DNA of 64,000 nucleotides from NCBI GenBank assembly GCA_017938155.1, contig JAGBCD010000036.1, positions 42,317-106,316 on the forward strand. Direction: 5' to 3'. Below the pieces are notes generated by a model. The model searched no databases. It saw nothing but the letters and a program-made list of their open reading frames with translations, and was not told where the DNA came from. This document shows, piece by piece, positions 15,843 to 45,234 of the stretch. This stretch comes from Paludibacteraceae bacterium (GTDB lineage: Bacteria; Bacteroidota; Bacteroidia; Bacteroidales; Paludibacteraceae). Both the position numbers and the translations under genes were made by a program. Numbering within the stretch: the first letter of the stretch is position 1; each line of letters opens with the position of its first letter.

Positions 15843-15846
15843 GATT

Positions 15847-27154: not shown

Positions 27155-27191
27155 CTTATTTTTGTTTTGATATTATACTAAGTTTCATTTA

Positions 27192-27224: not shown

Positions 27225-27236
27225 CAAATTAGTCCG

Positions 27237-27267
27237 CAAAGTTACTATTTTTCTTCGGTACTCACAA
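27237..27267 (-). promoter_or_regulatory. Promoter of the 2861-residue protein gene
   Basis: Minus strand: CTTG (27267-27264), 19 bp, TAACTTTG (27244-27237). The leader of about 80 nt contains the 27192-27224 hairpin. This makes the gene independent of the upstream six-gene array. Confidence 0.72.
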
Positions 27268-27386
27268 GTATTTTTACAAAAACTTTGCTTTTGCACCTAA
27301 GAATAGTCACTTTTGCTACAATAGTTATTACTATTCGCAACACATTCCTTCTACAAACATCAAAGGAAAGTTTGTTTACGTAAGTT

Positions 27387-27418
27387 CCACAAACGGAGTA
27401 TGCCTACCCCATTTGTGG
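27387..27418 (-). terminator. Hairpin terminator of the secreted-protein operon
   Basis: CCACAAA (27387-27393) pairs with TTTGTGG (27412-27418), extended inward by a G-U and two G-C pairs on the minus-strand RNA. It lies about 20 bp past the stop codon of the last gene of the array (27440). No strong U-run follows. Confidence 0.55.
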
Positions 27419-27439
27419 ATATATTTTCATCTGTATAGA

Positions 27440-28780
27440 TTATTTTTGTGGGAAGTTGAAGTGGTAAACCAATTTCACTCCACCATCAAAATAGCCTAAT
27501 TTGTTAGCGTATGCATCCGTTAGTGATAGGATATCAACAGTAGCATTGCCATGCGCTGTAGGAGGTGTTACAGCGATGAAACTTTCTTTGTTGAGGTCAT
27601 TGGTATAGAGTGAATACACGCCATAGTTGGCATAGGCACCCAATCCCAATGAGGTATTGTTTTTGAAGTTCCATTCCTTGCCCAGTTCTATTCCTACCAA
27701 TACATTGAGTTTGCTGGAATTGAACTTGTCTTTGTTGTCCATATTCTTCACGGCACCTGTAATCTGTTCGTTGGTTACGGTAACGTCCATTTCTGGGAAA
27801 TAGGCATGGATGTTTGCATTTTGCATGTTTTGGTTGAAATGTGTGAAGACGGGCAATGACACTTTAGGTCCTACATTTAGAAAGAACCCTTTGTCTGTAA
27901 TCATAGTAAACATGATCGGTATCTCCACCATTATTTGTCCATCTTTCTCATTGACATCAGTAGCTTGAATGCTGTAGTCAATTGGATTGCCATCAGCCAC
28001 TACGGAATAGGTAGAGTCAAGAGATGCAGACAGTTTGTTTTGCACATAGCCCACAGAAATACCGGTCAATATACCCATCGTAGGTTGGTGCAATGCTTTC
28101 TTGCCTCCTCTATTGCCAAAGTAGTATGCATATTGGATATCCAACCACGTATCAAATCCGCAGTGCCATTTGCCATCAATAGTCGTTTGTTGCATGAGTG
28201 ATGCGGCACCACCTCTCAGGCCGATAGAGATGCGGTTGAAACATTTATGCTTAACGTCTTTTATTTCTGGCATTTGTTCATCCCCCCATTCGTACTTGGT
28301 AGTATCGGGTATTTGTGGGGTAGAAGGTTTGGGCTGAGGAGCGGGTTCTATCTGTTTGGGTGTAGTATCAACAGGCAAGGGTTGTACGGGTGTCGTATCC
28401 TGTACTTGCTCCAGTTTCTCTTGCACTGCTTGTTCGATGGTTTGTCCGCTTTGCAGTTCCTTCATTATTTCCTCTGCCACCAATCCGTTAGGAATGAGGG
28501 CTTGTGGAATAACCCATGAGTTGATTCCTTGCAATAGGACGCCGTTGGGGAAGCGTTTACCACCAGCTTGTTTGACGATATGGTTCACTTTGTACACCCA
28601 TGTGGACATACGTTCTCCTGTGAGGTATCGTGTTTGTGTTGAGTCGATGCTCACGGTGTCACCCGGTTGGATATTGACATGTGAGCCGTCATAGTAGATA
28701 TCTTTGGTATTGGTATTGTTTTGTGCTACAGCAGTTAATGAGCAAATGGCAGCAACGATAGTTATGATATATTTTTTCAT
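27440..28780 (-). CDS. Outer-membrane beta-barrel protein with N-terminal SH3-like segment
   Basis: 446 residues. Signal peptide MKKYIITIVAAICSLTAVAQ. Residues ~25-90 (VNIQPGDTVSIDSTQTRYLT, then STWVYKVNHIVKQAGGKRF and INSWVIP) resemble the small SH3-like wall-binding segments with a TG..IPSWVKG..Y.V.QV....I.SWV pattern seen in lysins and amidases. A ~90-residue linker rich in Pro, Gln and Thr follows (for example APQPKPSTPQIPDTTK), then a C-terminal barrel of the Bacteroidetes OMP_b-brl kind (ISIGLRGGAASL, VEIPIMFTMITDKGFFLNVG, SLGLGAYANYG, FDGGVKLVYHFNF ending in aromatic-rich strands). It is the last gene of the secreted-protein array and 15 bp after the 2165-residue protein. Inference: an outer-membrane partner or anchor that may also bind peptidoglycan. 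Confidence 0.75.
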   Translation of the reverse strand: MKKYIITIVAAICSLTAVAQNNTNTKDIYYDGSHVNIQPGDTVSIDSTQTRYLTGERMSTWVYKVNHIVKQAGGKRFPNGVLLQGINSWVIPQALIPNGLVAEEIMKELQSGQTIEQAVQEKLEQVQDTTPVQPLPVDTTPKQIEPAPQPKPSTPQIPDTTKYEWGDEQMPEIKDVKHKCFNRISIGLRGGAASLMQQTTIDGKWHCGFDTWLDIQYAYYFGNRGGKKALHQPTMGILTGISVGYVQNKLSASLDSTYSVVADGNPIDYSIQATDVNEKDGQIMVEIPIMFTMITDKGFFLNVGPKVSLPVFTHFNQNMQNANIHAYFPEMDVTVTNEQITGAVKNMDNKDKFNSSKLNVLVGIELGKEWNFKNNTSLGLGAYANYGVYSLYTNDLNKESFIAVTPPTAHGNATVDILSLTDAYANKLGYFDGGVKLVYHFNFPQK

Positions 28781-28795
28781 TGTTCAGTCCTCCAA

Positions 28796-31700
28796 TTATT
28801 TCACGATGTATTTAAAGGTATATACCTGTTCACCCATCCATAGTTCGATCAGGTAGCATCCTGGTGTATTTTGTGCTTTTATTTGGATGGTTTGAGCCTT
28901 TTGCACAGTATGTATTTGCTGTACTTGCAATCCTTGTCCGTTGTATGTCTTCACGTCGCATACCTCTTGTGGATTGAGGCCTTGTATTTCTAAGGTTTGT
29001 CCTGGTGATGCGATAGAAGGGGTAATAGTAGGAGCGTATTGTACAGGAGTGCATGTGATGATATTGGTACGTGCTGTGATGCCGCAAGGATGTTGTTCGG
29101 ACTCACTGTATAGGAGTCGAGCATAGTACATACCCACGAGTGGTTCTCCTGTGGTGTAGTAGTATCCTGTTCCGACTTTCTTGTCGTTGCCCACTTCTGG
29201 TAGTAGGGTCAAGTCGTCTATCTCTCCATCCTCAGCGAGGTACCATTCGACAGAGTCTTGTGTTATCTCGCTAAATCCGAGTGTATCTTTGATGTAGCGG
29301 TAGTTGATCATCAGCATTCTGTTCCCGAACATTGCTTCTGCTGGCAGTTGGTCAAAATCGGTCGTATTGTCGGCACTTGGTAGTTCAACCAATTGTGTGA
29401 TGCTATCTTGTACGGTAGCGCAATCGCTTGTGAGTTGGCACATGATTTGTATCATCTCGCCGCCGTTCAAGAGTTGTTGTATTTGTCCAATAGGTTGCCA
29501 CTCGTCTTGTAGTTTGGCAAACCATTCTACTTGGGTATTAGGAGCATAGAGTATGTCGTTGTCTATTTTGTCCATTATCCGTTCGTTAGGCACCTCTACA
29601 TTGATTGGTTCGCCGCAGACGGTTCTGACGCCTTGCATCCAATCATTTTCCCACAACATATGGTACTTGATGAGGTTATGTTTCACTACGGAGTCGCATC
29701 CCAATACGGTGGTTAGGGTATCGTAGTAGTACTCACGAGTATCTGCAGGGCAGATGGTGTCATATACCTCGGTGTATTGGGTTGGATTGACTGTGAGTGA
29801 GAGTGTCACGATGCTGTCACATCCAGTAATGAAAGATGTCAAGGTCACTTTGTATTCACCTGTCTTGTTTAGACTTTGTCCATTCCATTCATATACTTGA
29901 TTGTCGCAGTTGGTGTCAGCCATTTGGTAGGTTAGTATTGGTAGTTCGGTCACGGTGAGGGTCACGATACTATCGCATCCTGTCACAAGGGAAGTGAGGG
30001 TATCTACAAAGGTACCTACAGGATAGGAGTTGCCTTCCCATTGTACTTGTTCGTTAGGACATACAAAGAGTTCTTGTGTGCCTGTGAGGATAGGCAGTTC
30101 GGTCACGGTGAGGGTCACGATACTGTCGCATCCAGTAACGAGGGATGTGAGGGTATCTACGTGTGTACCTACAGGATAGGAGTTGCCTTCCCATTGCACT
30201 TGTTCGTTAGGACATACAAAGAGTTCTTGTGTGCCTGTGAGTGTAGGCAATGCAATGACGGTGAGGGTCACAATACTGTCGCAACCATGGATGGTATTGA
30301 GGGTATCTATCCATTCACCTGCTTGGTAAGGATGGCCCTCCCACATATATGGGAGATCGTGTTCACATACATAGACGGTGTCTTTGATATCTTTATACAC
30401 AGGCAACACGTTGATGTCGTAGGTATAGATAGAGTCGTATTGGTATGTGAGTGCTTGTCCGTTGTAGGTCTCTGATGCGGTGAGGCATAGGGTATCACTC
30501 CATGTCGTGTCGCTGGTTATCGTGAGGGTTGTCAAGCGTGTGTTGTAGGTCTCTTCGTAGCATACAGATGCTTCTGTAGGTTGAACGAGACGTGTATAAG
30601 CCTCTGCCTCTAAGGTAAAGTCGTTGCTATAAAGTGTGTCTTGGCATGAGGTCACTACGGCGTAGCGTAGTTGTACTGTTTGTGTCAAGCTATCGAGCAA
30701 TGATACCGTATCTATAGGCAAATAGGTTTGCGTTGCGGTGTCTTTGGATTGCCAGAAGATGCTCTCCACGTGCATGTACTCGTTGTCGTCTTGTGGGTAG
30801 TCGTAGGTAAAGTCTGCCCAGAGTACTTGGGTGGCAAGTCCTACTTGTAGGGTCTTGCCAGCAGCCACGCGTGGTTTGGACTTCAAGGTGGTGTAGAGCT
30901 CTGGTTGCTTATACACACGGAAGTTGTATATATATACGCTATCGATGAGTCGTGTGAGTGACAAGGTATCCGTGGTAGCGATATTGAATACGGTATCTCG
31001 CACTATGGTATCGTTGGTTACCATTAGACTTGGATTGTTTCTTGTCTGTACGATAGTGTTTTGGCATAGTACAGAGTCTTGTACCACTACCAAAGAGTCG
31101 TAACGCCAAGGTTGTGCAACGATATTGATAACGTTGCTTTCCACCATGTTTTCGCAGCTATCCAAGAGGACGTATTGCAATGCCAATGTTTTTTGTTCTT
31201 TGGTCAGTGGAGCAGGATAAGCCTCAGCAATGGATTTGCCATCCAATGTTTGCCAATAGATACTATCCACTTTGGCCAACGTATCTTGTGCTATGCGTTG
31301 GTAGTAAGCAGCTATGGAGTCGAGTGATGGTTGCACTTCGATTTGCATACCTTGTACTACCAATGGGAGTGCATGCAAAGAATCGAGTTGATGTGTAGTG
31401 AGTGCTTGGTGTGGCATGATAGGTCTTACGTGGAAGTCTTTGATATATTCGATCAACCATGTATTTTCTATCACTTGGGTAGTATCGCTCCAGTACCATG
31501 TCTCTTCGTCGAAGGATAGTATTTCGCGCACGATATCTTTTTGTCCGATGGTATCGCTGAAGGTATAGAAAGCTCCGTCGCATACTACATCGTAGATGGT
31601 GTCTCGAACGATAGAGTCGGCTCTCTCTGGGATGAACTCAATATAGATGCGTGTAGTTGCACTATCGGAACGGTAGCCTAAGATGATATCCACCCATCCT

Positions 31701-34700
31701 AAGTGTTTGACTAAGTCACGGTCAATATCTTTGCTCTTTGCCTCGTATGGAGCAAATCCTTGTTCTACTGTCATGAGTATTTCTGAGTCACATTCACCCA
31801 TACGGATGTCTGTACCCGCTGTGGTAGAGTCGTTTTCTTCGTTGACAACCCATAGTCGGAGGTCTTTACCTTCTGGGAAGATGGTTGAGTCCATCTTGAT
31901 TTGGTAGAATAGGTATTTACCACCACCTGGGTGCACATTACCTTTTTCCCAATCGAAGACAATAGGTTCCAAGCAGTCTTCACCTTTGCTGAGTTGTGCT
32001 TCGAACTGGAAGGTGATGTCAGCATTAGGAATGATGCGTAGGTAAGCTACAGGTTTTTCTACCGACTGCATGTTGGCACGAGTAATGGTTTTCAAGAGGG
32101 TATCTTGTGGGTTAAGCACTTCGGTGCGTTTTGCCATGGTGTGTGCCACTGGGCATTCCCATGATACTTCTACTTGTACGTGAGTAGTGGTGTCGGCATG
32201 GTTGAACACTTTGAGCATTGCATCGCCTTTGGTATTGAGTTGCAGGTTAGAGATGTCCAACTCGTACCATACGGTATCGCCTGCTGCTTGATGGTAATCA
32301 ATGTTTGGTGCGAGGGCGATAGCCTCTTGGCAAGCAAAGATGGTATCGGTAAGTAGGTCATCAATATACTTGATATAGATGCTATCATCCACTTTGGTTT
32401 CCACGTATACGTATAGGTAATCCATTGCCATACCTTGTATGGTAGCAGATGCTATTTGTTTGGTAACCAATTGTTTTGCACCGATATTGGCGGATTGGCT
32501 TGTAATGATAGTGGAGTCACAATGTTCGTATAGTGAAGCATGTATATATCCTGTTTTGGTATCGATGTTCTTGACACCTATTTCAATGCCTTTGTTATTC
32601 GTTTTGAGTTCATTGACATTGATTCTGTACCATTTCTCTTCGTTGGCCAACTGTATATGTGAAGATAGTGTATCCAAGATGATGGCGTGTGAACAGTCCA
32701 CACCGTCGTTAGGGTCTTGTAGGTTGAATGAGAAGTTGAGCTTGTGGTCGGATTGTAGTTTGACATAGGCAGTCTTGCCCGCTCCGAGTAGTGCCACTTC
32801 ACGTTCGATGAGTTGGTGCAGTTCTTGTCCTGGTTGCAAGGTGATGCTGTTGGTCAGCATGGTTTGGTTGACAGGGCAATCAAAAGCCACTTGTACAGTG
32901 AGTGTATTGATTTGGTCACTGTTGTAGAGGGAAATATTGGAGGTATATTCGGTGTTGTTGAGTGTATCGGTATTGATGGTGTACCATGCCGTTCCCTCAT
33001 GTTTGTATTTGTATCCCCACTCCACTTCTTGATGGGTTGAGCAACTTGCGTCTGTGAATGGCGTTGGGTCAAGCAATTCGGCTTGCATGTGAATAGGTTG
33101 TTCACAAGCCACTCTATAGTAGATGAACGTATCTACCAGTTCAACTGCCGCATAAGGATGCAAGACTTGTTTGGTCTCTCCTGGGTTGAGCTCAAGTATT
33201 CTACGTTGTGGTTGGTTGCAAGGGCAGTTAGGTGCAAAGTCTAATATCACTTGGTTTTGTTTGGTATTGGACTTGTTGGTATAGGTCACCATTACATCTT
33301 TGTGTAGTAGTTTGGCTTGTGTTAGGTCCACACTATACCATAGGGCACCTTGTTCAGGTTTTTGGTGATTGCCGCTGGTCCAGTTGAACGGAATAGCTTT
33401 TTGGCAATCAGTACCTTCGTCAGGTGTCACAAAATTGATATGGAAGTCAATCGGTTGATTGGTGGTCAGTTTGACATAGAGGAAAGATATGGTCTTGTCA
33501 AAGTTACGCATAAAGTCCTTGGATGCCGTCTCTTGTGCTGTACCGTTGGCATCGAGTATAAGTTCTCTCGTTTGGTTAGGCAAGGAGTCTGGACATTCGG
33601 TGGACACCTCTATTTGTACGGTAGCATTTTGTGCAGCACGGTTGTTGATAATAGCGGAAGGTAGCAGTTCTGTGTTTTTGAGTGGTGTCATATCCACGAT
33701 AAACCATGCGGTAGTATCTTTGGGCAGGGTATGTCCTTCTTCCCAGTTGAAGTGTGTACCATTGACGCACGCACTATCTGCAGGTAGTACGGCGGTTGGC
33801 ACCCATTCTGCAAATAGCTCGAGTGGTTGTTCGGACTTTACTCCCATATAGATGGTGCTGGTACCCAACATTTGCAGTGTAGAGTTGTTGACTATTTTGT
33901 CGAACTCACCTTTGGGTCCTACAGCTTTCTCCAAAGTCTGTAGGTCAAGGTATGGGCACTCGAGTGCCATTTGTAGCAATAGATTGGTTGTTTGTGTCGT
34001 ACTTAGGTTTTTACCTACGAGTCGTAGGTCGTATAGTTGTCCTCCTTGCTTTTGTTTGGACAGGTCCACTGCATACCAGAAGTTACCTGGCTCTTGCATC
34101 ACGTTCTTGCCAAACTCAAATGGTGCTGCGCTTTTGCAGGCATCACCTTCTCTGACGTGTTTGAGTCGCACGTAAGCGTTGATGTCTTGTGAGTTCACCA
34201 CCTTGATAAAGAGGGTGTCGTAGTTGGCTGCTATCGCTTCTATTTGGTTGCGTTGCATGGTAACGACACTGATGCCATCAGGTTGGAGCGATGCGTCAAG
34301 TGTTTTCGTGGCTGATGTCTTAGATTGATATGCCAATACTTCAGTGATGTTGAGCACCTCTGTAGTTGAGAGGTTTTGAATGGTCATCTCTGGCATCATT
34401 TTCTTGCCCCTCAACGAATCGATGGGAATGTAGTAGTAGTGTTCTCCTGCGGGGATGATAGTCTCTTGGTAGAGATTGAACTGTGTTGCAGCGGAGAAGT
34501 CCACTACAGGCATAGCAGGCATCGTAATAAGTTCTGGATGTATCTTGATGTTTTGACTGGCTTGCACTTGCAAGTACGTCTCATCCATAGCTTTGGCATC
34601 GATGTCCATACGAAGGATGGTGTCATATACAGTGGCATAGGCAGGTATATGAACAGTCTTGGTTGTGATACCTGTACTTGGGCAGTCAGGGCTCTCTTGT

Positions 34701-35293
34701 AGGAGTACTTGTGCCTCTTGTGCTGAAGTGTTTTGTAGCACGTAGCGAATAGTCTTGGCAGCATCATTTTTCGCATCAGCTATATTAAGTTTGTACCAAG
34801 CTTCGCCTTTGTTTTGTGTCGTAGGGATGTTGTAGGTTAGGTAAGGTGCGTCCACACAACCATTGTCCATCTCCACGTAGTCGGTCACAGAAGCGGCGAG
34901 GCGGAGATCATGGCTGCATCGTAGTTTGAGATAAACCAGTTTTTGGTTCATCTTCACCAACTGTGCCACACTTTTGGAAAGCAACACATTGCTATGCGGT
35001 GCAATGGTTTTGTCATACTCCATGCTATTGCTTAGCAGTGTAGCTTCGGCCATTACCTCATTGGGAACGTCTGCCATGTTGATAAGGTAGAGGGTTAGGT
35101 ACGGATCATCCTCGTCGTAGAGGGGGTCTAAGCTAATTTTGTACCATACGTCTGTAGCCGTTGCAGGTTGCAGGTTTCCTTTTTCCCAGTCGAAGGGGAT
35201 GGCATTTTCTTTGCTTGTTCCATCTGCTACAGCTGCAATGCCCAGCATGCATGTAGCGATCAGTGTTAGGGTAGTTAAAACGAAACGTTTCAT
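28796..35293 (-). CDS. Giant secreted repeat protein, paralogue of the 2861-residue protein (2165 aa)
   Basis: Signal peptide (MKRFVLTTLTLIATCMLGIA). About ten N-terminal modules of ~125-130 residues share the Cys-x-x-A...FNW...W-Y-x-V/I-D-L pattern with the 2861-residue protein. A middle region (~1280-1750) holds other repeats; then four to five ~50-residue GCDSIVTLTV units (two nearly identical at DNA level, 153-bp period). The pre-terminal region (TDFDQLPAEAMFGNRMLMIN, VGTGYYYTTGEPLVGMYYA) aligns by eye with its counterpart in the 2861-residue protein, and the last ~75 residues look like a T9SS sorting domain (LEIQGLNPQEVCDVKTYNG...YTFKYIVK). Fourth gene after the 1534-residue protein's start in a close-spaced array. 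Surface localisation is likely; function unknown. Confidence 0.88.
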   Translation of the reverse strand: MKRFVLTTLTLIATCMLGIAAVADGTSKENAIPFDWEKGNLQPATATDVWYKISLDPLYDEDDPYLTLYLINMADVPNEVMAEATLLSNSMEYDKTIAPHSNVLLSKSVAQLVKMNQKLVYLKLRCSHDLRLAASVTDYVEMDNGCVDAPYLTYNIPTTQNKGEAWYKLNIADAKNDAAKTIRYVLQNTSAQEAQVLLQESPDCPSTGITTKTVHIPAYATVYDTILRMDIDAKAMDETYLQVQASQNIKIHPELITMPAMPVVDFSAATQFNLYQETIIPAGEHYYYIPIDSLRGKKMMPEMTIQNLSTTEVLNITEVLAYQSKTSATKTLDASLQPDGISVVTMQRNQIEAIAANYDTLFIKVVNSQDINAYVRLKHVREGDACKSAAPFEFGKNVMQEPGNFWYAVDLSKQKQGGQLYDLRLVGKNLSTTQTTNLLLQMALECPYLDLQTLEKAVGPKGEFDKIVNNSTLQMLGTSTIYMGVKSEQPLELFAEWVPTAVLPADSACVNGTHFNWEEGHTLPKDTTAWFIVDMTPLKNTELLPSAIINNRAAQNATVQIEVSTECPDSLPNQTRELILDANGTAQETASKDFMRNFDKTISFLYVKLTTNQPIDFHINFVTPDEGTDCQKAIPFNWTSGNHQKPEQGALWYSVDLTQAKLLHKDVMVTYTNKSNTKQNQVILDFAPNCPCNQPQRRILELNPGETKQVLHPYAAVELVDTFIYYRVACEQPIHMQAELLDPTPFTDASCSTHQEVEWGYKYKHEGTAWYTINTDTLNNTEYTSNISLYNSDQINTLTVQVAFDCPVNQTMLTNSITLQPGQELHQLIEREVALLGAGKTAYVKLQSDHKLNFSFNLQDPNDGVDCSHAIILDTLSSHIQLANEEKWYRINVNELKTNNKGIEIGVKNIDTKTGYIHASLYEHCDSTIITSQSANIGAKQLVTKQIASATIQGMAMDYLYVYVETKVDDSIYIKYIDDLLTDTIFACQEAIALAPNIDYHQAAGDTVWYELDISNLQLNTKGDAMLKVFNHADTTTHVQVEVSWECPVAHTMAKRTEVLNPQDTLLKTITRANMQSVEKPVAYLRIIPNADITFQFEAQLSKGEDCLEPIVFDWEKGNVHPGGGKYLFYQIKMDSTIFPEGKDLRLWVVNEENDSTTAGTDIRMGECDSEILMTVEQGFAPYEAKSKDIDRDLVKHLGWVDIILGYRSDSATTRIYIEFIPERADSIVRDTIYDVVCDGAFYTFSDTIGQKDIVREILSFDEETWYWSDTTQVIENTWLIEYIKDFHVRPIMPHQALTTHQLDSLHALPLVVQGMQIEVQPSLDSIAAYYQRIAQDTLAKVDSIYWQTLDGKSIAEAYPAPLTKEQKTLALQYVLLDSCENMVESNVINIVAQPWRYDSLVVVQDSVLCQNTIVQTRNNPSLMVTNDTIVRDTVFNIATTDTLSLTRLIDSVYIYNFRVYKQPELYTTLKSKPRVAAGKTLQVGLATQVLWADFTYDYPQDDNEYMHVESIFWQSKDTATQTYLPIDTVSLLDSLTQTVQLRYAVVTSCQDTLYSNDFTLEAEAYTRLVQPTEASVCYEETYNTRLTTLTITSDTTWSDTLCLTASETYNGQALTYQYDSIYTYDINVLPVYKDIKDTVYVCEHDLPYMWEGHPYQAGEWIDTLNTIHGCDSIVTLTVIALPTLTGTQELFVCPNEQVQWEGNSYPVGTHVDTLTSLVTGCDSIVTLTVTELPILTGTQELFVCPNEQVQWEGNSYPVGTFVDTLTSLVTGCDSIVTLTVTELPILTYQMADTNCDNQVYEWNGQSLNKTGEYKVTLTSFITGCDSIVTLSLTVNPTQYTEVYDTICPADTREYYYDTLTTVLGCDSVVKHNLIKYHMLWENDWMQGVRTVCGEPINVEVPNERIMDKIDNDILYAPNTQVEWFAKLQDEWQPIGQIQQLLNGGEMIQIMCQLTSDCATVQDSITQLVELPSADNTTDFDQLPAEAMFGNRMLMINYRYIKDTLGFSEITQDSVEWYLAEDGEIDDLTLLPEVGNDKKVGTGYYYTTGEPLVGMYYARLLYSESEQHPCGITARTNIITCTPVQYAPTITPSIASPGQTLEIQGLNPQEVCDVKTYNGQGLQVQQIHTVQKAQTIQIKAQNTPGCYLIELWMGEQVYTFKYIVK
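29941..30246 (-). repeat. Coding tandem repeat, 153-bp period, two copies
   Basis: Two near-identical copies (29941-30093 and 30094-30246) encode 51-residue units containing QELFVCPNEQVQWEGNSY and ending GCDSIVTLTVTELP. A third, more diverged unit follows. Same unit type as in the 2861-residue protein. Confidence 0.88.
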
Positions 35294-35328
35294 CGTTTAT
35301 GTAATCTTTTTATATCTATATATAGTGT

Positions 35329-37290
35329 TTATTTACAATGTTGTCCTGTTAGGGTATATTTTTGGTTATCTCTGATAATGTATAGGTTGCCATTTTCGTC
35401 ACGTTGCAGGTAATAAGGCAGGTTGTTATCAGCCTGATTGTCTTGCAAGTGTGTAGGTTCATCGAGTTGTGTAAGGGTCAGGGTAACCTTGTAGGTACAT
35501 CCGTTAGGGTCTTTGGCAGTGATGATATGTGTACCAAAATCGGTTATCACTTCTCCCGTAGCGACATGAGTATAAGGTAGTTGTGATGCAGGCAATTGTA
35601 CGGACTCGGTTAGCACCTCTGGTTTGAGGATGGTCACGTTGTATTGGTTTATTTGCTTTGCATCCTGACTGACGATAATGGTGTCCACCAACACTGCTGA
35701 ATGGTCGGTCTTGAGTCCTTTAGGTGTAGTAAAGGTCTTGCCCGCGCAGAGGGTCGTATCGATGGTTGTTTGTGTGATATCCATCAGTTGAGTCACAGTG
35801 AGTTCTACGGTGCGGGTACAGGTGTTTCTACCTTCCACTTTGATGGTTTGTGTACCGAAGTTCTCCACTACATGTCTTAGGCTTGTCTCGTAGTAAGGCA
35901 GTTGTGACGCATAGAGTGATAGGTTCATGTACTCGGTTTCGAGTAAGGTATATTGTACGTTATATGTCGTGATGAGTTGTGTATCGGCATCGGGCATGGT
36001 GGTCACCTTGAAGGTGGTATCGTTGGGATAGGTCTTGCCGCCCATGGCAAAGGTCTTACCGGTACAGATGGTAGTGTCCACGTATTGTTGTAGTGTAGTC
36101 ATGCCGTGTACGACGTGTAGTAGGATACGTTCGTCACACTGTCCTGGTGTATGGATTACGAAATCGTAGTCACCAAAGTGGTCAATTAGCTTCTCCTTGC
36201 GATAGAGCGTAGGAAGTTGTGATGCAGACAAGGTGATGGTGTCGTATATTGTCTCTGGCGGTGTGATGGTCAGGTTGTAGGTAGTCACATTGATTTGGTT
36301 GGATGTAACCCATGCCGTATCCACGTAGCCTGTCACTGATTGTGTAAGCAATGTATCTGCCAACTGCAATCCCATACCTTGACACAGGGTCGTATCGATG
36401 GTGATTGCGTTGTAGATAGGTTTGGTATATACGCGTACTCTGCCCACATAAGTAGAGTCGTGGCGTAGGTGTACGAAGATTGGTTGTGCTTGTGCTTTCG
36501 CGTTCGCAATGGTTTGTTTGGATAGTACCAATACTTTGGTGGAGTCTGCCAATTGCGTTTGTAGGAAAGGCGTAGCATCGCAAGTAGCCAACGAGAGCTC
36601 AAAGTCGCAAGGCAGGTTGTTTTTTTGTTGCCATTGGATAAACACGTCGCTATTGGATGGCATCTGCGCGGGGTTGAACTTATACACATCATAAGGGGAT
36701 GATGAGATAAAGGTCATTCCGTTGTACATAGGCAGTGGGTCCTCGCAGGTAGAGTTGGGTCCTTGGTCAAAAGGCGTACATATCACTCTACCCTCTCCAT
36801 CTCCTATAGGGTACGCGCGCATGTGAGGAGTAACGGCTTGTTGGAATACCTCTCCCAGTTTACCCATCTCGTCCAGTTTTTTGTTGATGTCGGTCACGTC
36901 CATATCTTTCATTTGGTTGGGCGACACGCGTAGGGAGAAGGTGGGTTCTTTGGATGAGCAGAAAGCATATACCTCAAGTTGTATTTGGCAGTCTGCAAAC
37001 CAATAGGCAGTAAGTCCTTTGCGCAACTCGCTAATTGGTGCGGAAAACCATGTAGTGTCGCTGATGGTCATATCCATGCCAAATTCGAAAGGAATGGATG
37101 TTTCCTTGCAGTCACAGAAGTAATATTTGTAGCCAAATATTTTTCTTTCGAGTTCGCAGGACCAAGAGCCTTCTGCTATTTCTTCATCGGAAGGCAGTTG
37201 CTCTACATAATTCTCTGTTTGTGCATTTAGACTGACGGTGACGGTCGCACCGAAAAGGGCTAAAGATAGCGCAAAGTGACGTAGTTTCAT
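35329..37290 (-). CDS. Secreted protein with three ASQLPY repeats (653 aa)
   Basis: Signal peptide at the N-terminus (LRHFALSLALFGATVTVSLNA). Residues ~25-290 are a cysteine-containing domain related in pattern to the modules of the giant proteins (IPFEFGMDMTISDTTWFSAP). Residues ~290-610 hold three ~105-residue repeats, each with IDTTLC-x-G-K, then YNVTI, then L-x-ASQLPY and a final FGTH/FGTQ-I...C-T-x-x-V-x-LTVTQL. The end, GNLYIIRDNQKYTLTGQHCK, is a short motif of the kind found at the C-termini of many Bacteroidetes exported proteins, rather than a full ~70-residue T9SS domain. It lies 19 bp after the 593-residue protein and 35 bp before the 2165-residue protein. Function unknown. Confidence 0.82.
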   Translation of the reverse strand: MKLRHFALSLALFGATVTVSLNAQTENYVEQLPSDEEIAEGSWSCELERKIFGYKYYFCDCKETSIPFEFGMDMTISDTTWFSAPISELRKGLTAYWFADCQIQLEVYAFCSSKEPTFSLRVSPNQMKDMDVTDINKKLDEMGKLGEVFQQAVTPHMRAYPIGDGEGRVICTPFDQGPNSTCEDPLPMYNGMTFISSSPYDVYKFNPAQMPSNSDVFIQWQQKNNLPCDFELSLATCDATPFLQTQLADSTKVLVLSKQTIANAKAQAQPIFVHLRHDSTYVGRVRVYTKPIYNAITIDTTLCQGMGLQLADTLLTQSVTGYVDTAWVTSNQINVTTYNLTITPPETIYDTITLSASQLPTLYRKEKLIDHFGDYDFVIHTPGQCDERILLHVVHGMTTLQQYVDTTICTGKTFAMGGKTYPNDTTFKVTTMPDADTQLITTYNVQYTLLETEYMNLSLYASQLPYYETSLRHVVENFGTQTIKVEGRNTCTRTVELTVTQLMDITQTTIDTTLCAGKTFTTPKGLKTDHSAVLVDTIIVSQDAKQINQYNVTILKPEVLTESVQLPASQLPYTHVATGEVITDFGTHIITAKDPNGCTYKVTLTLTQLDEPTHLQDNQADNNLPYYLQRDENGNLYIIRDNQKYTLTGQHCK

Positions 37291-37309
37291 ATGTTCGATT
37301 GTTTAGATA

Positions 37310-39091
37310 TTACTGTATTTTGTTTCCCATCAAGTCGTATAGGTAGGTATGGTCTTGTTCGATAACTTGGATGTAGATATGGTTGTCGATAAGTATAAGT
37401 TTGGTCGTTCTATTCTCCCAAGTAGCCTCTATCGGTTTGAGGTCGGTGGTCGTGCCAGGTATTTCGCTCATCGTTTTGGTAATGAGTTTACCTTTGGCAG
37501 CACTTCTGAGTCGTAGGTATATATTACCCAAACCGTCTGCTCGATTGAGGATAAGGTCATTGATTTTGTCCTTGTCTATTATGGTAGAGTCGTTGGAACC
37601 CACTTGTTTGTATAGTCCTACGTGCATATTGTTGGCAGCGAGTGAGAACTCACACGTGTCGGCTATGAAGATATAGGCTTGCTTGGTACCTTCCCATACA
37701 AGGCAGTGGATCGAGTCTTTCCATTCGTCTGCATTGAGTCGATAGATGGTGTTTTGGTTGTATGCAGGCATATCCACGGTGTCGTTGATAGCGAGTAGTG
37801 TACTCTTGGTGTTGCAGTCTATCACTGGAGGGATAAACTCGTCCCACCACAGGGTACCCTCTTCGATGCGGTTGATTTGTAGGAACACCCATCCGTCTGT
37901 ATGCTTGGCAGCAATGTCGTTGACACGCTCCTTGAGCAGGTCGGCATACATAAAACCGTCTTGCTCGTTGTAGTAGAAATGAACGGTATCGATCACGTCT
38001 GGGTCTTTGGGTGTAAACTCAAATCCGCAGAACTTAGCGAAGATAGCGGTAGCATCTTCGTGGTTGGCTGATTGCCATTTGAGGCGTATGTTCTTGTCCT
38101 TGACATCATCAGCTTTGAATCGGAAAGATTTAGATGCCGAAGTCACATTCTTGGTCAAGGCCAATCCTGCTTCTGATGTAGGGAAAGTAATAGCCGTTGT
38201 TTTGTAGTTCATCGCACAAGTGTTGATAGTGACAACTCCATGCTCTTTGTAGTCGTCCACATAGAGTTTGCCATCTTCTTGCGCATAGAACTTGACGTAC
38301 ATATTACCATCTTCGGTATAGCGTACATACTGGTTAATCTGCACGTCTGAAAGTACTTGTGCAGGTAGTCCATTGTTGCTACTGCTGAAGGTATAGCGAT
38401 CGTAAGCATTGGCAGTGTCTATCACGCATGTGTTGTCAAGGTAAGCCAAGAGTGGTGTCTCTCCTGTCCAAGTAAAGCGCAGTTTGCTACCCACCCACTC
38501 GGTCACAGGGAAATAGTAGGTGCGAGAGGTATCGTTGGCAAGGAGGTTGAGTGTATCTTGCATATCGGCACGAATGGACAGTTCCTCGCAATTTTGTATC
38601 ACCTTGTAGTTATCTATTTGCGCAGTACCCGCCACATCGGTACGCAAAGAAACATAGGCTGGGATGCTATAGTCGATATTGAACGCCGCAAAAGCATCCA
38701 AGATATCACGCTCGTAGTGTAGTTTGTAGGTCTTCTTGCCGTCCACCATCACGACTTCCAAATCCATTTCTGCTGGGAAATATGCTTCGTAATTCGCTAA
38801 GTCTGCTACCATGCTGGCTACATTGGGGTCGCTATACACACCAGGTGTACAAGTTAGGTCCACATACACCTGAGGGTCGTTTTCCGATTCCTCATTCGGG
38901 AAGAAATAGACAATCAGTGGTAGGTCTTCCGAATTGGCAGTGTACCAATAGGTTCGGTTAGGTTCGATGTTTTGTGAGAAAGTCGAATCCACATAGATAG
39001 CATTCTCGCAAGCGGTACCAGGAGTAGTCGCATGCAATAGAGTAGCCATAGCTACGCATAGTAAAGATAAGAGTGTTTTTTTCATTTTCAT
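37310..39091 (-). CDS. Secreted protein, modular (593 aa)
   Basis: Signal peptide MKKTLLSLLCVAMATLLHA. About four ~130-residue units follow, each beginning with a cysteine near N/E-A-I-Y/T-W-Y and carrying RFTWTGETPLLAYLDNTC-like or LVWEGTKQAYIFIADTC segments, again the general pattern of the giant proteins' N-terminal modules. The C-terminus (KLILIDNHIYIQVIEQDHTY, then LYDLMGNKIQ) is a short terminal motif like that of the 653-residue neighbour. Product and partner unknown. The repeated WTG/WEG-x-x-x-x-x-A-Y-I/L-D-x-C signature suggests a family of beta-sandwich surface modules. Gaps of 25 and 19 bp to its neighbours place it in the operon. Confidence 0.8.
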   Translation of the reverse strand: MKMKKTLLSLLCVAMATLLHATTPGTACENAIYVDSTFSQNIEPNRTYWYTANSEDLPLIVYFFPNEESENDPQVYVDLTCTPGVYSDPNVASMVADLANYEAYFPAEMDLEVVMVDGKKTYKLHYERDILDAFAAFNIDYSIPAYVSLRTDVAGTAQIDNYKVIQNCEELSIRADMQDTLNLLANDTSRTYYFPVTEWVGSKLRFTWTGETPLLAYLDNTCVIDTANAYDRYTFSSSNNGLPAQVLSDVQINQYVRYTEDGNMYVKFYAQEDGKLYVDDYKEHGVVTINTCAMNYKTTAITFPTSEAGLALTKNVTSASKSFRFKADDVKDKNIRLKWQSANHEDATAIFAKFCGFEFTPKDPDVIDTVHFYYNEQDGFMYADLLKERVNDIAAKHTDGWVFLQINRIEEGTLWWDEFIPPVIDCNTKSTLLAINDTVDMPAYNQNTIYRLNADEWKDSIHCLVWEGTKQAYIFIADTCEFSLAANNMHVGLYKQVGSNDSTIIDKDKINDLILNRADGLGNIYLRLRSAAKGKLITKTMSEIPGTTTDLKPIEATWENRTTKLILIDNHIYIQVIEQDHTYLYDLMGNKIQ

Positions 39092-39116
39092 TGGGGTACC
39101 ATTCGGTACATTATAT

Positions 39117-42100
39117 TTAATCCACTATAAGTTTGATAATTTCGTATGTTCCTTTGACGATATAGATGCCTTGTGGGGCTGATATACTCATTTGTTCGCC
39201 TTCTGTTAGTTGTCCCTCAAAGAGCGCTTGACCGTGCATATCATAGATCACCGCATGTTGTGCTTGCAATGCTGTCAGATGTATTTGCATGTTGTTGGCA
39301 TACGCATTGAGAGTCGTTCTATCCCCGATGGTAGGCAATCCTGTAGCCGTTTGCTCCTCGTATATCACTTTACCTGCACGAGATATGGCTTTTGGCATAC
39401 GAGCAGTGAGCGGGTTATAGAGCATAAATGTCTCCATGGGTTTCACTGAGTATTCGGATGTTTTCAACTCGTAATAATCGTTGGATGTATTGTGAATATA
39501 TCCTGTACTTGCTGGCAAAGTCAATGCATTGAGAGAAATATTACCTTTTAATATTGCAGAACCCACATTGGATAAAGGATTGGCTAATACAGAGGTATGC
39601 ACATTCGTTCCATCCACCTCTTGAGGACCTTTTCCATGTAGAAGGAGGTACTTTCCTGTCCAATAATCATATTTTGTTCGGGTAGCCGCATCTCCACATA
39701 ATGGACAATAAGGGAACTGCATTGCATAGACATGCCCCTTCTTGAGTATCGCTTCGTTTTCCAATGGGGTGGCTACTGGTTTCCAAACAATATTTAGTTC
39801 TTCACCTGTTGCATTGGTAGAGAAAGAACCATCAACATCGAGATTATCCAACTCGTACAAATAGTAGTTTGCCTCACGGATATTGGCACCATTGTAGTGA
39901 ATCAATTCATAAGGCTTTACGCCATACCATTCCATCAATGTCGTTAGCGGATGAGAAGTAGTACGTCCATCAGCAGACGGAATAACAAAGCCACTTATTT
40001 CATTGAAGAATTTCAAAAATGCAGTAGCTTGCGCTCGATGCGCATCTTCTCGCGTCATGGCTTCAAGTTCTGTTTCCTTTGCTCCTTCCAATACAGAAAT
40101 ATCATGCACATCAAATGGAGCCACTATAGTTATCCATTGGTCCGCCTCAATGGATTTAAATATATTCAAATCCTTTTGAATCCTATAATTCTCTGCATTG
40201 GTAATATTGGAACGGTTTGTCGTACATTTGATATGCATTTCACCATCCACTATTTCTACTTGTTTTTGCATTTCGTCCACTTCAAGGTATAACAAATAGT
40301 TTGTTTCTACAGCTGTACCATCCACTTGTTTTTCTACATCTATATCTCCACCTACACCTACACCTGTTCCTGAATTTGACACATTAATCGTAGGAATGCA
40401 TGTGGCCCATTGGCGTGATAGTGTATTATTGAATGGTTGACACCAAGTATTTCCACCAGTTGTAGCCACTGCTGGTAACAATAGATTAAGTTTTCCCTCT
40501 TCATCAGGGTTAAGTGATTGCGCGCCATATAGCACATTCGAGATCACACTTTGCATTGTGGAAGAGTTTCTTAAGTCAGTTGCTATCGCATTGGATGTAC
40601 CATAAAAATCTCCTGCAAATCGGATTCCATCAAAGGAAGGGTCATCAAAACTGAATGTCTTGGTGCCGTATGCTGTTTCTCCATTAGGATCTGCACCATT
40701 GAATAAGCACAACTCAACCCCTACCCCATTCACAGGACTTTTACCTCGTGTCGTTGCTTCAACACATGTTACTACATTGGTTATTCCGTTGAACGTACCT
40801 CCATTAACAACCGATTTGCCAGGAAGGCGCAAGTCCATAAAATTAACATCGTCACGATAATAAGCTTGTCCTGCACCTGGATTGGTATTTTTCTCCAATG
40901 TAAATGTGCCTGAATTGATCGTCACTTGACAATTACCTGGTATATCTCCTCCAAATCCATACAAGTAGATGGTAAAGCCAGCAGCAGTTTTAGAATAGCG
41001 TCTATAACTTGCCATAACATTGGTCGTGTAGTTACCATCGGCGGCAGCATTACGCAAGCAATATTGTCCGCCATTGAATGTAGCCTGTCCTGCATCAGAA
41101 CCTAAATCCAATGAACCAATTTGAGACATGGCTGCAGTCAATTTAAGGAAACCATTGGTAATGGTACCATCTGCCCAGTTATCATCAAATATCAGGTTAG
41201 TCTTTCCTGAACTTTTATCAGCACGTATAGTAATAGGGGCACTTGCTTGTGAAATATTCGTAATACCTGTTTCTATAGTAATTACCACCTTACCCACTAC
41301 GCTTTTGATAAACATACCATATTGCCCCTGCAAGAAGTTATCTCCTTTGATATGGAAATTAGGACGATACGAAGTACCATCTGCCGTTGCTGAAGAATAG
41401 AACACAAATGGCGATGAACAACCCTTGATATAGTTGTCACCCAATCCAAGTTCAAGCGTAAAGTCCGCATAATCAACACCACTCGATCTATTGCATCCGT
41501 TTTCTGTTTTGTATCGGCCACGTATTTCACAATCTTCCAAATAGATATCTACAGAGGTATTACCACCTTTGAAATACATCCACCCCTCCTCGTCTGCCGT
41601 AGTACCCATATACGCAAATGGACAATATCCTGTAAGATAGATTTTCTTACCACTCATTGAGGTATCATGGTTAAAACGTGTCTTGGTCGCATCCAACGTT
41701 TGTTCCAGTTGATAACCACCTTGCACCTTATTATATACGTACAAAGGTGTTGTAGCATTGAAACAAGTAGTTTCTTTGTCTGGGTTGGTAGGCGTATTGA
41801 TACGAGGATAAATTTGTCCTTTGTAAGTATAAGTTGCATCGTTGGTATTGGATGTGAGACCAAAGATATAGAGTTTATCAAACAATGGTTCTCCGTTCGA
41901 ATCAAAGCATGCTGATAAATTAATTTTCCTTTTGGGCTTATAAGGGAATGTCTCACTTGGACACTCTGTACCAGTATAAACATCGTAAAAATCAACAATA
42001 TTACTGTTCAAAGTATTCAATGTAAGAGAAATTTGATTAGACCATGCTGTATAAGAAATACTATTGTATTCAACCAAGGCTTCAACTATATACACTTTTG

Positions 42101-43721
42101 ACGCCGCTGTTGATGCTATTTTCACTCCCATATGCTTCTCGTCGATGTCCAAAGGTACAGCATCATTTATTTCCACTTTGTCCGTCCCATTCGTCACCTC
42201 ATAGAGTTTGTATTCAACAGCACCATAATCTTCGCCTAATCGAATTTTGTCCCATACCAGAAAATACGTATCCCGAGAATTGGAAGAACCTTTGAGAGTA
42301 GGCGCTGCCAATCCTACATTGACTTGTATCGGCAAGGATGCCTCAGTAGTTTCACCGCTATGCCCATCACGACTATCCTTACCAGAAGCCGTCAAAATAG
42401 CATTAAAATTGCCTGGATATGTGGATAGAACGGACACACGTACCAAACCATCAGATACCTCATAACTAAACACACCCGAAGCATTAGTTGAACCAAATGA
42501 ATAAGTCACATCAGACGTATTTTGTATAGACACCGTTACATCTTCAAATTTTTCTTGATGAGTAACCGATGCAAAATTAACTGATGCAGGTGTAAATTCT
42601 ATTTTGGATTCAAGAGGTTTTTTGGCAGTACCTGTAAGCGTCGTTTGGACTACTGTGGATTTTATTGCTGTCCCCTTGCTATCTGTGTACGTAGCATACA
42701 ATTTCAGAGTAGCAGTATGCGTACCCTCTGCTTGCGGTTTATACGTGACTACGCATTGTCCTTTTGTCGGGTTTGATGAAGTGGTAAAATACGACGCATT
42801 TGTTCCCTCTATGGTAGCAGTCCATGTCGTCTTATTATTGCTGGCGACAGCATTAGGAGAAGTCATAAATAAACTTGTACCAGACCCTTTGCTATCCATC
42901 GAATAAATCTCACCAAAATCAAAAGAACTCGGCATCGTAAATGTAGGAGTCAAATCTGAATGTGCACCTATAGTAGCCGTTTGAGAACTTTGCTCCCCTT
43001 TATTATCTTTTCCTTTGGATGTTAGCGTGACGGTTGCATTAGAAATATCTCCATGAATATCTTGGTCAGTATATCTTACCGTCACGGTGACAATTTTATT
43101 TGTCACATTACAAGACGTACTTTCAACACTATAACCCAAACCACTAACAGTTGCAATAAAGTCTTGCCCTTCTGCACTATTTGCTGCGTTAACATTGAAC
43201 GTCACCGTACCAGTCCCTATTCCACCCAAGTCCTCCGTTTGAATTCGAGTATTATTACTATTGCCTTGAGTAACTAAAATAGGAAGGAAATATGCACCCA
43301 TTTCAGCAATAGGAGCTTCCTTTGCATCCTGCGCCGTCGTTTCTATCCTCATTTTACGTGGATTATCCGTGTAAACACCTTTTGCGTCCTCCCATTTTTC
43401 AAAGTAATAACCTAAAGATGGATTGGCAAAGATATACATATCCACATTCATTGATTCAGCATCCCAACTCAAATATTGTGTTTTTGAACCAGTCCACTCC
43501 CCATTATCTTTCCAGTCAGCAGAAGTATTTTCTGGTTTATTATTCTCAGTACTTGCGTACACTTTACCTGCTCCTGCTGGAGAAGTAGTAGCACTAACTT
43601 TCACATAACCCGTAAAATCACCTCCCCACATATAATTTGCACACGAAAACATTATGCACAAAACGACTGCAAAGCGCTTAATAAGAGAAGTCTGTTTTGT
43701 ATTTATTACACGATTTTTCAT
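39117..43721 (-). CDS. Large secreted protein with Ig-like/FN3-type and beta-helix-like regions (1534 aa)
   Basis: An N-terminal hydrophobic stretch (RFAVVLCIMFSCANYMWGG) acts as signal peptide after a basic start. Next, ~150 residues with VSATTSPAGAGKVYAS and YYFEKWEDAKGVY, the InlB-B/bacterial repeat-like pattern; then Ig-type domains (FTMPSSFDFGEIYSM, IEFTPASVNFASVTH); an FN3-like unit (LVWDKIRLGEDYGAVEYKLY); a long run of short beta segments naming glycine turns (GNCQVTINSGTFTL, VVNGGTFNG), suggestive of a right-handed beta-helix; and a C-terminal T9SS-like end (AVIYDMHGQALFEG, PQGIYIVKGTYEIIKL). It is the second gene of the secreted array. Probably exposed on the cell surface; function unknown. 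Confidence 0.82.
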   Translation of the reverse strand: MKNRVINTKQTSLIKRFAVVLCIMFSCANYMWGGDFTGYVKVSATTSPAGAGKVYASTENNKPENTSADWKDNGEWTGSKTQYLSWDAESMNVDMYIFANPSLGYYFEKWEDAKGVYTDNPRKMRIETTAQDAKEAPIAEMGAYFLPILVTQGNSNNTRIQTEDLGGIGTGTVTFNVNAANSAEGQDFIATVSGLGYSVESTSCNVTNKIVTVTVRYTDQDIHGDISNATVTLTSKGKDNKGEQSSQTATIGAHSDLTPTFTMPSSFDFGEIYSMDSKGSGTSLFMTSPNAVASNNKTTWTATIEGTNASYFTTSSNPTKGQCVVTYKPQAEGTHTATLKLYATYTDSKGTAIKSTVVQTTLTGTAKKPLESKIEFTPASVNFASVTHQEKFEDVTVSIQNTSDVTYSFGSTNASGVFSYEVSDGLVRVSVLSTYPGNFNAILTASGKDSRDGHSGETTEASLPIQVNVGLAAPTLKGSSNSRDTYFLVWDKIRLGEDYGAVEYKLYEVTNGTDKVEINDAVPLDIDEKHMGVKIASTAASKVYIVEALVEYNSISYTAWSNQISLTLNTLNSNIVDFYDVYTGTECPSETFPYKPKRKINLSACFDSNGEPLFDKLYIFGLTSNTNDATYTYKGQIYPRINTPTNPDKETTCFNATTPLYVYNKVQGGYQLEQTLDATKTRFNHDTSMSGKKIYLTGYCPFAYMGTTADEEGWMYFKGGNTSVDIYLEDCEIRGRYKTENGCNRSSGVDYADFTLELGLGDNYIKGCSSPFVFYSSATADGTSYRPNFHIKGDNFLQGQYGMFIKSVVGKVVITIETGITNISQASAPITIRADKSSGKTNLIFDDNWADGTITNGFLKLTAAMSQIGSLDLGSDAGQATFNGGQYCLRNAAADGNYTTNVMASYRRYSKTAAGFTIYLYGFGGDIPGNCQVTINSGTFTLEKNTNPGAGQAYYRDDVNFMDLRLPGKSVVNGGTFNGITNVVTCVEATTRGKSPVNGVGVELCLFNGADPNGETAYGTKTFSFDDPSFDGIRFAGDFYGTSNAIATDLRNSSTMQSVISNVLYGAQSLNPDEEGKLNLLLPAVATTGGNTWCQPFNNTLSRQWATCIPTINVSNSGTGVGVGGDIDVEKQVDGTAVETNYLLYLEVDEMQKQVEIVDGEMHIKCTTNRSNITNAENYRIQKDLNIFKSIEADQWITIVAPFDVHDISVLEGAKETELEAMTREDAHRAQATAFLKFFNEISGFVIPSADGRTTSHPLTTLMEWYGVKPYELIHYNGANIREANYYLYELDNLDVDGSFSTNATGEELNIVWKPVATPLENEAILKKGHVYAMQFPYCPLCGDAATRTKYDYWTGKYLLLHGKGPQEVDGTNVHTSVLANPLSNVGSAILKGNISLNALTLPASTGYIHNTSNDYYELKTSEYSVKPMETFMLYNPLTARMPKAISRAGKVIYEEQTATGLPTIGDRTTLNAYANNMQIHLTALQAQHAVIYDMHGQALFEGQLTEGEQMSISAPQGIYIVKGTYEIIKLIVD

Positions 43722-43781
43722 ATGATTATCGTTTTATAGATTCAAACAATTTTATTTTCAATCAAGTACATATTTGTGTTA

Positions 43782-44663
43782 CTACAACTTCACGACAAAC
43801 CTTTTTCTTTTTCTCACCACCCATAAGGCATATAGCATCACCAATACAAGTAGTGGCCAAATATCTCCAATAGGGAATGCATATTGAGGAGTTTCACCTT
43901 GGGTATTGAACCACGCAAGGAACTGCTCCCATGTCAAACCTGGCATATTTCCACTCTTGATAGCTTCTTCAAAAGCAGCACGCAGTAGTTCTTGATCATA
44001 ATAACGAACACCACCTGACTCAAACAAGAACGCATCGCCCTCAATGCCCCGCAACCACATATCAAAACCATTATCCGTTCCTCCACCTATCGTACCCGGT
44101 GCTCGCAACAACGGACTATTGGTGCTATGTTCAAACTTAGCCAAGGTCAAATCCGCTGTAGTACCTATAGCACGATACTGACCACCCCTCGGACGGACAA
44201 TAACGGCGGTTGCAGAGGAAGCCGAAGGAACAGCCGTTCCATATTGGAGAGCCGTAGGAATAGCAACACCATTAGTAGAAGAACCCGCAGTGGGTTTCAC
44301 CGTACTTACAGAAGTATTGATTTCATACATATTGTAATATGCCCCACTCTCTGTCGAAGAAGACTCCATCGATGAGGTCATCGTAGTAAACACACCTCCG
44401 TTATACGAAGCGGCAGGCACCGCACTCGAAGAACGGAAATCACGACGTACCACATGAGACGTTGGTTGAATAACAATACGAGATGGCTCAATAAGCGAAT
44501 TCACTGAGCGCATCTGGATACGATTAGGCGCAGAAACGGGATTTGCCGAAAGCAAGGACGAGAAGAGCAACAATGCCCCTAACATCACCCCTCTGCACAG
44601 CACACCCTTTCTATTGAAAAATGGTATATCTGCTCGTATCACACGAAAGAATGAACAAACCAT
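43782..44663 (-). CDS. Small exported protein with C-terminal GD-W / hydrophobic / Arg-Lys tail
   Basis: 293 residues from the ATG at 44663 (a TTG nine bases upstream is less likely). An N-terminal signal sequence has a long basic n-region and core GVMLGALLLFSSLLSA. A low-complexity middle is rich in Ser, Thr and Ala (MTSSMESSSTESGAYYNMYE) and includes MRSVNSLIEPSRIVI. The C-terminus is tripartite: PIGDIW, a hydrophobic helix PLLVLVMLYALWVV, then RKRKRF. This resembles sortase/exosortase-style sorting tails in form but has no LPXTG or PEP motif. First gene of the secreted array, 60 bp before the 1534-residue protein gene, so it likely acts with those proteins. Could also be a plain inner-membrane anchor. 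Confidence 0.72.
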   Translation of the reverse strand: MVCSFFRVIRADIPFFNRKGVLCRGVMLGALLLFSSLLSANPVSAPNRIQMRSVNSLIEPSRIVIQPTSHVVRRDFRSSSAVPAASYNGGVFTTMTSSMESSSTESGAYYNMYEINTSVSTVKPTAGSSTNGVAIPTALQYGTAVPSASSATAVIVRPRGGQYRAIGTTADLTLAKFEHSTNSPLLRAPGTIGGGTDNGFDMWLRGIEGDAFLFESGGVRYYDQELLRAAFEEAIKSGNMPGLTWEQFLAWFNTQGETPQYAFPIGDIWPLLVLVMLYALWVVRKRKRFVVKL

Positions 44664-44870
44664 AATTAACAAATAATCTTTTTCTTAAACATAGTCAAGC
44701 AAGTCCAATAACATCAAAAAATCTCAATCAAAACACAATACAAAGTATTGATAATCAAATTTATTAATCTTATCAAAACTTTTTTGACAAAACTCAAAGG
44801 CCAACAGTTATTTTGACCTCCACCTTAGAAAACATACTTATTTTGATATGCATAGTAAGGATTTTCGCCA

Positions 44871-44902
44871 CAAAGGTACTACAAATACTTAAAATATGCA
44901 AA
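44871..44902 (-). promoter_or_regulatory. Promoter of the six-gene secreted-protein operon
   Basis: Minus strand: TTTG (44902-44899), 20 bp, TACCTTTG (44878-44871): an exact match to the Bacteroidetes consensus. The leader before the first ATG (44663) is about 200 nt. Confidence 0.82.
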
Positions 44903-45190: not shown

Positions 45191-45234
45191 TTTCGTCTTT
45201 GTCTGCAAATAATCTGCATTTTAGGCAAATATGC

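Follow-up and report, generated by a model that had tools for sequence, protein, structure and literature searches.

A candidate cognate outer-membrane barrel for a giant surface protein in a recurring three-gene core of Paludibacteraceae

Described routes for fixing T9SS cargo to the cell are PorV/PorU to LPS for type A, PorP/SprF for type B and, as a special case, PorZ-PorQ. PorV is stated to recognise every type A CTD (PMC12618676). Type B cargo is held by PorP/SprF barrels, and PorE links PorP to peptidoglycan (PMC9143113, PMC12618676). A type B cargo gene followed by a PorP/SprF gene is a known order, for example SprB-SprF (PMC12618676). PorV and the PorP-like proteins are 14-stranded barrels of the FadL family (PMC9143113). 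PorZ keeps its type A CTD, and this binds one particular barrel, PorQ, which is discussed together with PorV-like barrels; PorZ-PorQ is part of the T9SS attachment complex (PMC10202324). PorG is linked to the T9SS and is predicted to be an outer-membrane protein with 8 strands; its C-tails carry cysteines (PMC12635249).

The locus described here lies in a window (the whole analysed stretch of 64,000 nucleotides) from a 1.96-Mb draft genome, and it resembles each of these systems in part. With PorE-PorP-PG1035 and SprF-SprB it shares a cargo gene followed by a barrel gene, and the combination of cargo, barrel and wall-binding part. However, the cargo has a type A-like CTD without TIGR04131, the barrel is not of the PorP/SprF kind, the wall-binding-like module is fused to the barrel, and the cargo carries an extra domain in front of its CTD (the pre-CTD domain). 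PorZ-PorQ shows that type A cargo can sit on a cognate barrel, but that cargo is not a giant. The window barrel has no Pfam match at E<=0.1. Like PorG, the window protein is a putative small outer-membrane barrel with a T9SS connection; PorG belongs to the general T9SS machinery, whereas the window barrel ends at its last strand, without a periplasmic C-tail, and no conserved Cys column was found in 16 of its orthologues. OmpA-type barrels also combine a small barrel with a peptidoglycan-binding domain, but in the genus of the window the wall-binding-like module is N-terminal, of endolysin type and linked to T9SS cargo. Since there is no TIGR04131, no TIGR03519 and no PorG-type cysteine tail, the system is not PorP/SprF, type B or PorG. 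By analogy, we infer that it would work like the type B PorP/SprF and PorZ-PorQ pairs without being a member of either. Neither a small cognate barrel for type A cargo nor these Paludibacteraceae genes were found in the titles and abstract starts of open-licence PMC papers, which is weak evidence of absence.

Table 1. Features of the locus, in window coordinates.
Feature	Position	Strand	Basis and remarks
Bacteroidota-type promoter motif TTG-N20-TAccTTTG before gene 1	44871..44901	-	Motif scan; sole full one on the minus strand ahead of the six genes
Small exported tail protein, 296 aa from TTG	43782..44672	-	ORF; C-terminal hydrophobic stretch
1534-aa protein	39117..43721	-	ORF; borderline T9SS CTD
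593-aa exported protein	37310..39091	-	ORF
653-aa exported protein, third core member	35329..37290	-	ORF; matches neither a family over its cut-off nor a recognised sorting domain
Giant surface protein, 2165 aa	28796..35293	-	ORF; borderline T9SS type A cargo
Ten tandem ~120-aa modules of giant (aa 29-1233)	31595..35209	-	No known family over cut-off
Five ~51-aa repeats of giant (aa 1619-1870)	29684..30439	-	Repeat analysis
Pre-CTD domain of giant (aa 1982-2087)	29033..29350	-	Proposed docking domain for barrel
T9SS type A sorting domain of giant (aa 2100-2165)	28799..28996	-	Borderline score
Barrel gene, 446 aa	27440..28780	-	ORF; signal peptide, wall-binding-like module, Pro/Gln linker, C-terminal outer-membrane beta-barrel
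Endolysin-type wall-binding-like module of barrel protein (aa 38-99)	28484..28669	-	Phage homology
Second full promoter motif, ahead of 2861-aa paralogue	27267-27237	-	Motif scan
2861-aa giant paralogue	18569..27154	-	Pre-CTD domain and type A CTD; own promoter motif
Pre-CTD domain of 2861-aa paralogue	18809..19105	-	

ORFs were called mechanically, in draft genomes, and the signal peptides of the window proteins by eye. A preliminary description of this DNA had reported six minus-strand genes separated by 15-60 bp behind one consensus promoter. The ORF coordinates bear out the arrangement, with gaps of 15, 35, 19, 25 and 60 bp counted from the barrel gene; position 44663 is the next ATG after the TTG start of the tail protein at 44672. 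The promoter is less secure. A full motif does precede gene 1, but the motif TTG-N18..23-TAnnTTTG, which we take to be the Bacteroidota promoter consensus, is weak evidence by itself because five copies also occur on the plus strand of the same stretch (26900-45500), where the minus strand has two against 0.59 expected from 200 simulated sequences. A scan for sigma-70 promoters stayed at chance level (43 vs 43.1). No Pfam family exceeded its cut-off in the seven window proteins; matches below the cut-offs (MACPF on the 653-aa protein, 5_nucleotid_C on the 2861-aa paralogue, DUFs) were set aside. Elsewhere in the window, a plus-strand gene run at 4951-17052 resembles, by eye, a surface polysaccharide cluster of what are presumably sugar-nucleotide dehydrogenase and glycosyltransferase genes.

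Conservation of the gene order was assayed in named genomes scanned with the barrel alignment, taking the best 80 of 123 relatives. Most of their records carry the title Paludibacteraceae bacterium or Bacteroidales bacterium, and many come from the guts of herbivores; Paludibacter, Alistipes and Candidatus Colicola each appear as the title of one record. The barrel ORF was called in 79 of the 80 loci; in the exception, L082, a longer minus-strand ORF (10004-11509) on the opposite strand overlaps the barrel match, and the mechanical call missed the barrel. In 76 of the 79 loci the next gene upstream, on the same strand, is giant-like; the other three loci lie at contig edges. Where the giant is complete (59 loci), the 653-aa gene precedes it in 47, is absent in 10, and the sequence ends in 2. 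Further upstream, the 43 testable loci are those of the 47 with at least 400 bp more sequence, and the 10-kb flanks often end there: a 593-aa-like gene was found in 24 of them, a relative of the 1534-aa protein in four and, by BLAST, the tail protein in none. The recurring core is three genes, encoding the 653-aa protein, the giant and the barrel. Conserved synteny, which the preliminary description had set as a test for the six genes, thus holds for the core order and is not general for the six. Cargo and barrel are also found without the rest, as small cargo with ~300-aa barrels within the genus and as other type A cargo with barrels in other genera.

The large proteins had also been described, from their termini, as T9SS-type cargo. 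On TIGR04183 (cut-off 23 bits) the 2165-aa giant scored 22.8 bits alone, 23.0 with its neighbours and 15.3 in hmmscan; the corresponding values for the 1534-aa protein were 22.6, 23.1 and 18.8, and the 2861-aa paralogue reached 25.6 bits (20.8 in hmmscan). For the 593-aa, 653-aa and tail proteins, hmmscan reported no TIGR04183 match at E<=0.1. Cargo status thus has borderline profile support for the 2165-aa and 1534-aa proteins and none for these others. The type B sorting domain TIGR04131 was absent from the NCBIfam matches at E<=0.1 in the seven proteins scanned. The translocon SprA (2670 bits) and the sortase PorU (1041 bits) are encoded elsewhere in the same genome, and the single genome match to TIGR03519 (PorP/SprF) at E<=0.01 lies on contig C18 and is not the window barrel. 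This genome has 21 TIGR04183 matches at E<=1 vs three pre-CTD matches. A short C-terminal tail like 'NGQxxIxxxGxxYNxLGxxI' was seen on many ORFs of loci L010-L016 and L050-L149. The regular expression for its 'YNxLGx' part matched 74 of 780 ORFs that were complete and at least 250 aa long (some occurring repeatedly in the set), and neither the 653-aa nor the 593-aa protein; such tails are possibly a further or truncated T9SS signal.

The giant and its 2861-aa paralogue are built alike, with 10 and 11 ~120-aa modules and 5 and 21 ~51-aa repeats, respectively. Because they are tandemly repeated, modules and repeats would be expected to form a long rod; a PDB profile search with the 120-aa module gave matches at E 0.3 or worse only. 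The paralogue lies beyond the six-gene stretch (27440..44663) and has no barrel gene directly downstream. It may share the barrel encoded upstream of it.

The last ~180 residues of 74 giants comprise a conserved ~100-aa domain, the pre-CTD domain, followed by the CTD. Searches with this domain gave weak or chance matches only in Pfam, and E 0.3 or worse only in PDB profiles. A profile was made from 20 sequences, 19 of them from barrel neighbours, so that diverged pre-CTD copies unlinked to a barrel may be missed in the counts that follow. It had 35 matches in 31 genomes of the genus, and in 30 of the 35 a barrel match lies at most 1600 bp downstream. In two more (G019:C97 and G407:C54) the contig stops within the next gene, and the gene end matches the start of another, barrel-encoding contig. 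The three without an adjoining barrel are the window's 2861-aa paralogue, G007:C16 and G427:C38. Counted by genome, 22 have both pre-CTD domain and barrel, one the domain alone (G007), one the barrel alone (G008) and seven neither (Fisher p=2.3e-5, overstated since the genomes are related); in G008 the upstream cargo carries a weaker pre-CTD match, below the threshold of that search.

Seen from the barrel side, 65 matches in the genus were reduced to 58 by merging second pieces (7 dropped). At E<=1e-30, 28 of 36 have a pre-CTD match upstream. The other eight are G008, five contig-edge or fragmented-genome pieces (three in G428, G019:C19 and G407:C15), G407:C34, whose length and match range equal those of the contig-edge copy G407:C15, and G424:C13. 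Among weaker barrel relatives (E>1e-30) a pre-CTD match lies upstream in 2 of 22; the wider barrel family is therefore not tied to the domain. One barrel relative on contig C2 of the window's own genome (L166) was rejected as a cargo locus, as its 1181-aa neighbour has no T9SS-like end by eye.

Barrel length also varies with the cargo. Short barrels, defined as under 380 aa, make up 14 of the 94 non-redundant cargo-barrel pairs among the loci examined, and their complete cargo proteins measure 223-308 aa. Those of 223-271 aa, adjoining ~300-aa barrels, consist of a signal peptide, a short stretch, the pre-CTD domain and the CTD, with little else. In L177, for example, a cargo of 265 aa is paired with a barrel of 320 aa. 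On a tree of cargo C-termini (a quick tree, 36 of 91 inner branches being open), barrel length class changes 3 times; the mean of shuffled assignments was 13.3, and 0 of 500 were as low. A mirror-tree comparison was not discriminating: barrel-cargo distances correlated at 0.58 and 0.61 vs 0.56 for the stretch upstream, so that strict co-evolution is not shown.

The barrel part of the 446-aa protein (aa 182-446) measures ~265 aa. At E<=0.5, PF13568 was found in 4 of the 17 members aligned (best 1.6e-6) but not in the window copy, for which Pfam as a whole gave no match at E<=0.1; a PDB profile search with the barrel gave no matches. A small barrel has both its termini on the periplasmic side. 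The N-terminal module (~62 aa), which has invariant W/Y/G positions, is present as a single copy in 72 of 80 long barrels, as two copies in 5 and not at all in 3, and all 14 short barrels are without it. The wall-binding-like N-terminus named in the preliminary description does resemble phage endolysin wall-binding domains. A tblastn search with two module copies against 50,697 phage records gave best E values of 8e-4 and 2e-4, and most of the matches listed are endolysins or cell wall hydrolases from phages of Enterococcus, Lactococcus and Streptococcus; the search with the second copy also counts 127 Klebsiella phage records, outside the matches listed. The module profile matched four phage proteins over nearly the full length of the module. 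Their best domains scored 35.8-38.6 bits, with E from 3e-8 to 2.5e-7 at a nominal database size of one million sequences; three of the proteins bear the annotation endolysin, lysin or cell wall hydrolase, and the fourth is hypothetical. In PHROGs, 12 of 20 copies matched a 'tail assembly protein' family (best 2.1e-4), hence the module is not confined to lytic enzymes. A PDB profile search with the module gave E 0.3 or worse only, and four Pfam families that each matched one of 20 members were taken as chance. On this homology, the module would bind peptidoglycan.

Outside the genus, the barrel profile at E<=1e-6 found 17 of 393 genomes of the order, three of the genus and 14 from nine other genera; three genomes from other genera of the same family, among the 393, had no match. 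All 16 loci of the 14 genomes, found by barrel sequence alone, form the distant set. A type A CTD gene lies directly upstream of the barrel in 14 of these 16 loci, or 8 of 9 by genus. Twelve of the 14 cargo genes were recognised by TIGR04183 (L155 and L162 below its cut-off), and those of L157 and L165 by a local CTD profile made from the giants and searched in loci only; NCBIfam gave no match on the L157 cargo. The pre-CTD domain was found outside the genus in L150 and, weakly, L165 only. Ten of the 16 distant barrels were scanned for domains. The OmpA domain PF00691 is present in seven, namely 5 of 8 cargo-linked barrels and both barrels without cargo (L158 and L164), and PF13568 was over its cut-off in five and just under it in one more. 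Given the short barrels without module and the OmpA domain on cargo-free barrels, tether and cargo do not strictly go together.

Altogether, we regard the core as probably, though with modest confidence, a surface-fibre system whose barrel provides the giant with a cognate, often wall-tethered anchor in the outer membrane. Export of the giant would be by the T9SS, whose machinery genes are in the genome, and the modules and repeats of the giant would extend as a rod. Its C-terminal part (the pre-CTD domain, with or without the CTD) would dock on the barrel encoded directly downstream, as their linkage and co-occurrence suggest. The N-terminal module of the barrel, judged by its homologues, would grip peptidoglycan below the membrane and so fix the fibre to the cell wall, not to LPS only, although attachment to LPS is also possible because PorU is present in the genome. 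The 653-aa protein may be a further exported subunit. More tentatively, and here we stop short of calling it probable, Bacteroidales may possess a further T9SS anchoring route, in which type A-like cargo with a docking domain before the CTD has its own small barrel, often tethered to the wall via an OmpA or endolysin-type module. If so, type A-like cargo would have a further mode of attachment to the cell, through a cognate barrel that includes a wall-binding part. The view that PorV serves all type A CTD cargo would then need to be extended for this class, and there would be a mechanical coupling between giant fibres and the cell wall. A module of the kind found in phage endolysins is, moreover, present in an outer-membrane protein. 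The anchor idea can be tested directly on the small pairs, whose cargo and barrel measure ~260 and ~300 aa.

The barrel might instead be a dedicated shuttle, like PorV for type A or SprF for type B, that takes the giant from the SprA translocon, anchoring being secondary. Its gene does follow the cargo gene directly, in the order of type B cargo and PorP/SprF (PMC12618676), and cargo C-termini sort by barrel length class. However, PorV and PorP-like proteins are 14-stranded members of the FadL family (PMC9143113), against a barrel part of ~265 aa here. The PorP/SprF model does not match the window barrel, some relatives match PF13568, and the wall-binding-like modules suggest an anchor; we consider the shuttle unlikely. 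It is also quite unlikely, in our view, that PorU binds the giant to LPS like other type A cargo while the barrel, an OmpA-like envelope stabiliser, merely shares the transcript. The PorU gene and the type A-like CTD of the giant agree with such a scheme, as do the two distant OmpA-bearing barrels without cargo and the uninformative distance correlation, but it leaves unexplained both the co-occurrence of barrel and pre-CTD domain and the 14 of 16 loci of other genera that join a type A CTD gene to a barrel.

That all six genes build one surface structure, as the preliminary description expected, is very unlikely. Short gaps and a promoter motif in front fit this idea, and all six genes occur in order in G011 (L052), with one more small gene in front, and five of them, without the 593-aa gene, in G024 and G023 (L050 and L051). 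However, the tail protein and a related large neighbour stand apart from the core in the window's own genome (contigs C25 and C3) and elsewhere, so that the tail and 1534-aa proteins are separable from it, and most genomes of the genus with the barrel have no tail protein. The tail-domain profile matched 11 places in 7 of the 31 genus genomes; the tail protein is in the core operon in three of those seven (G000, G011 and G024), and also in G023, outside the 31-genome set. The tail protein and the 1534-aa protein would be a second, separable module on what is probably the same transcript, and the six genes two modules plus the 593-aa gene.

Ten of the 11 tail-domain matches were read in their context, G024:C107 being left out. 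The tail proteins (window 43782-44672; L010 9709-10653; L011; L050-L053; L184-L187) form a family whose members are small, exported and hydrophobic over a C-terminal stretch; their genes directly precede that of a large exported protein, mostly T9SS-like by eye. A Lnb_N/TM-type protein is encoded between the tail gene and the large neighbour in L010, L011 and L185, with a Pfam match in L010. In L011 (6346-7407, on C3 of the window's own genome), the tail-protein copy is divided between two ORFs, and the match contains a stop, which may reflect a sequencing error or a pseudogene.
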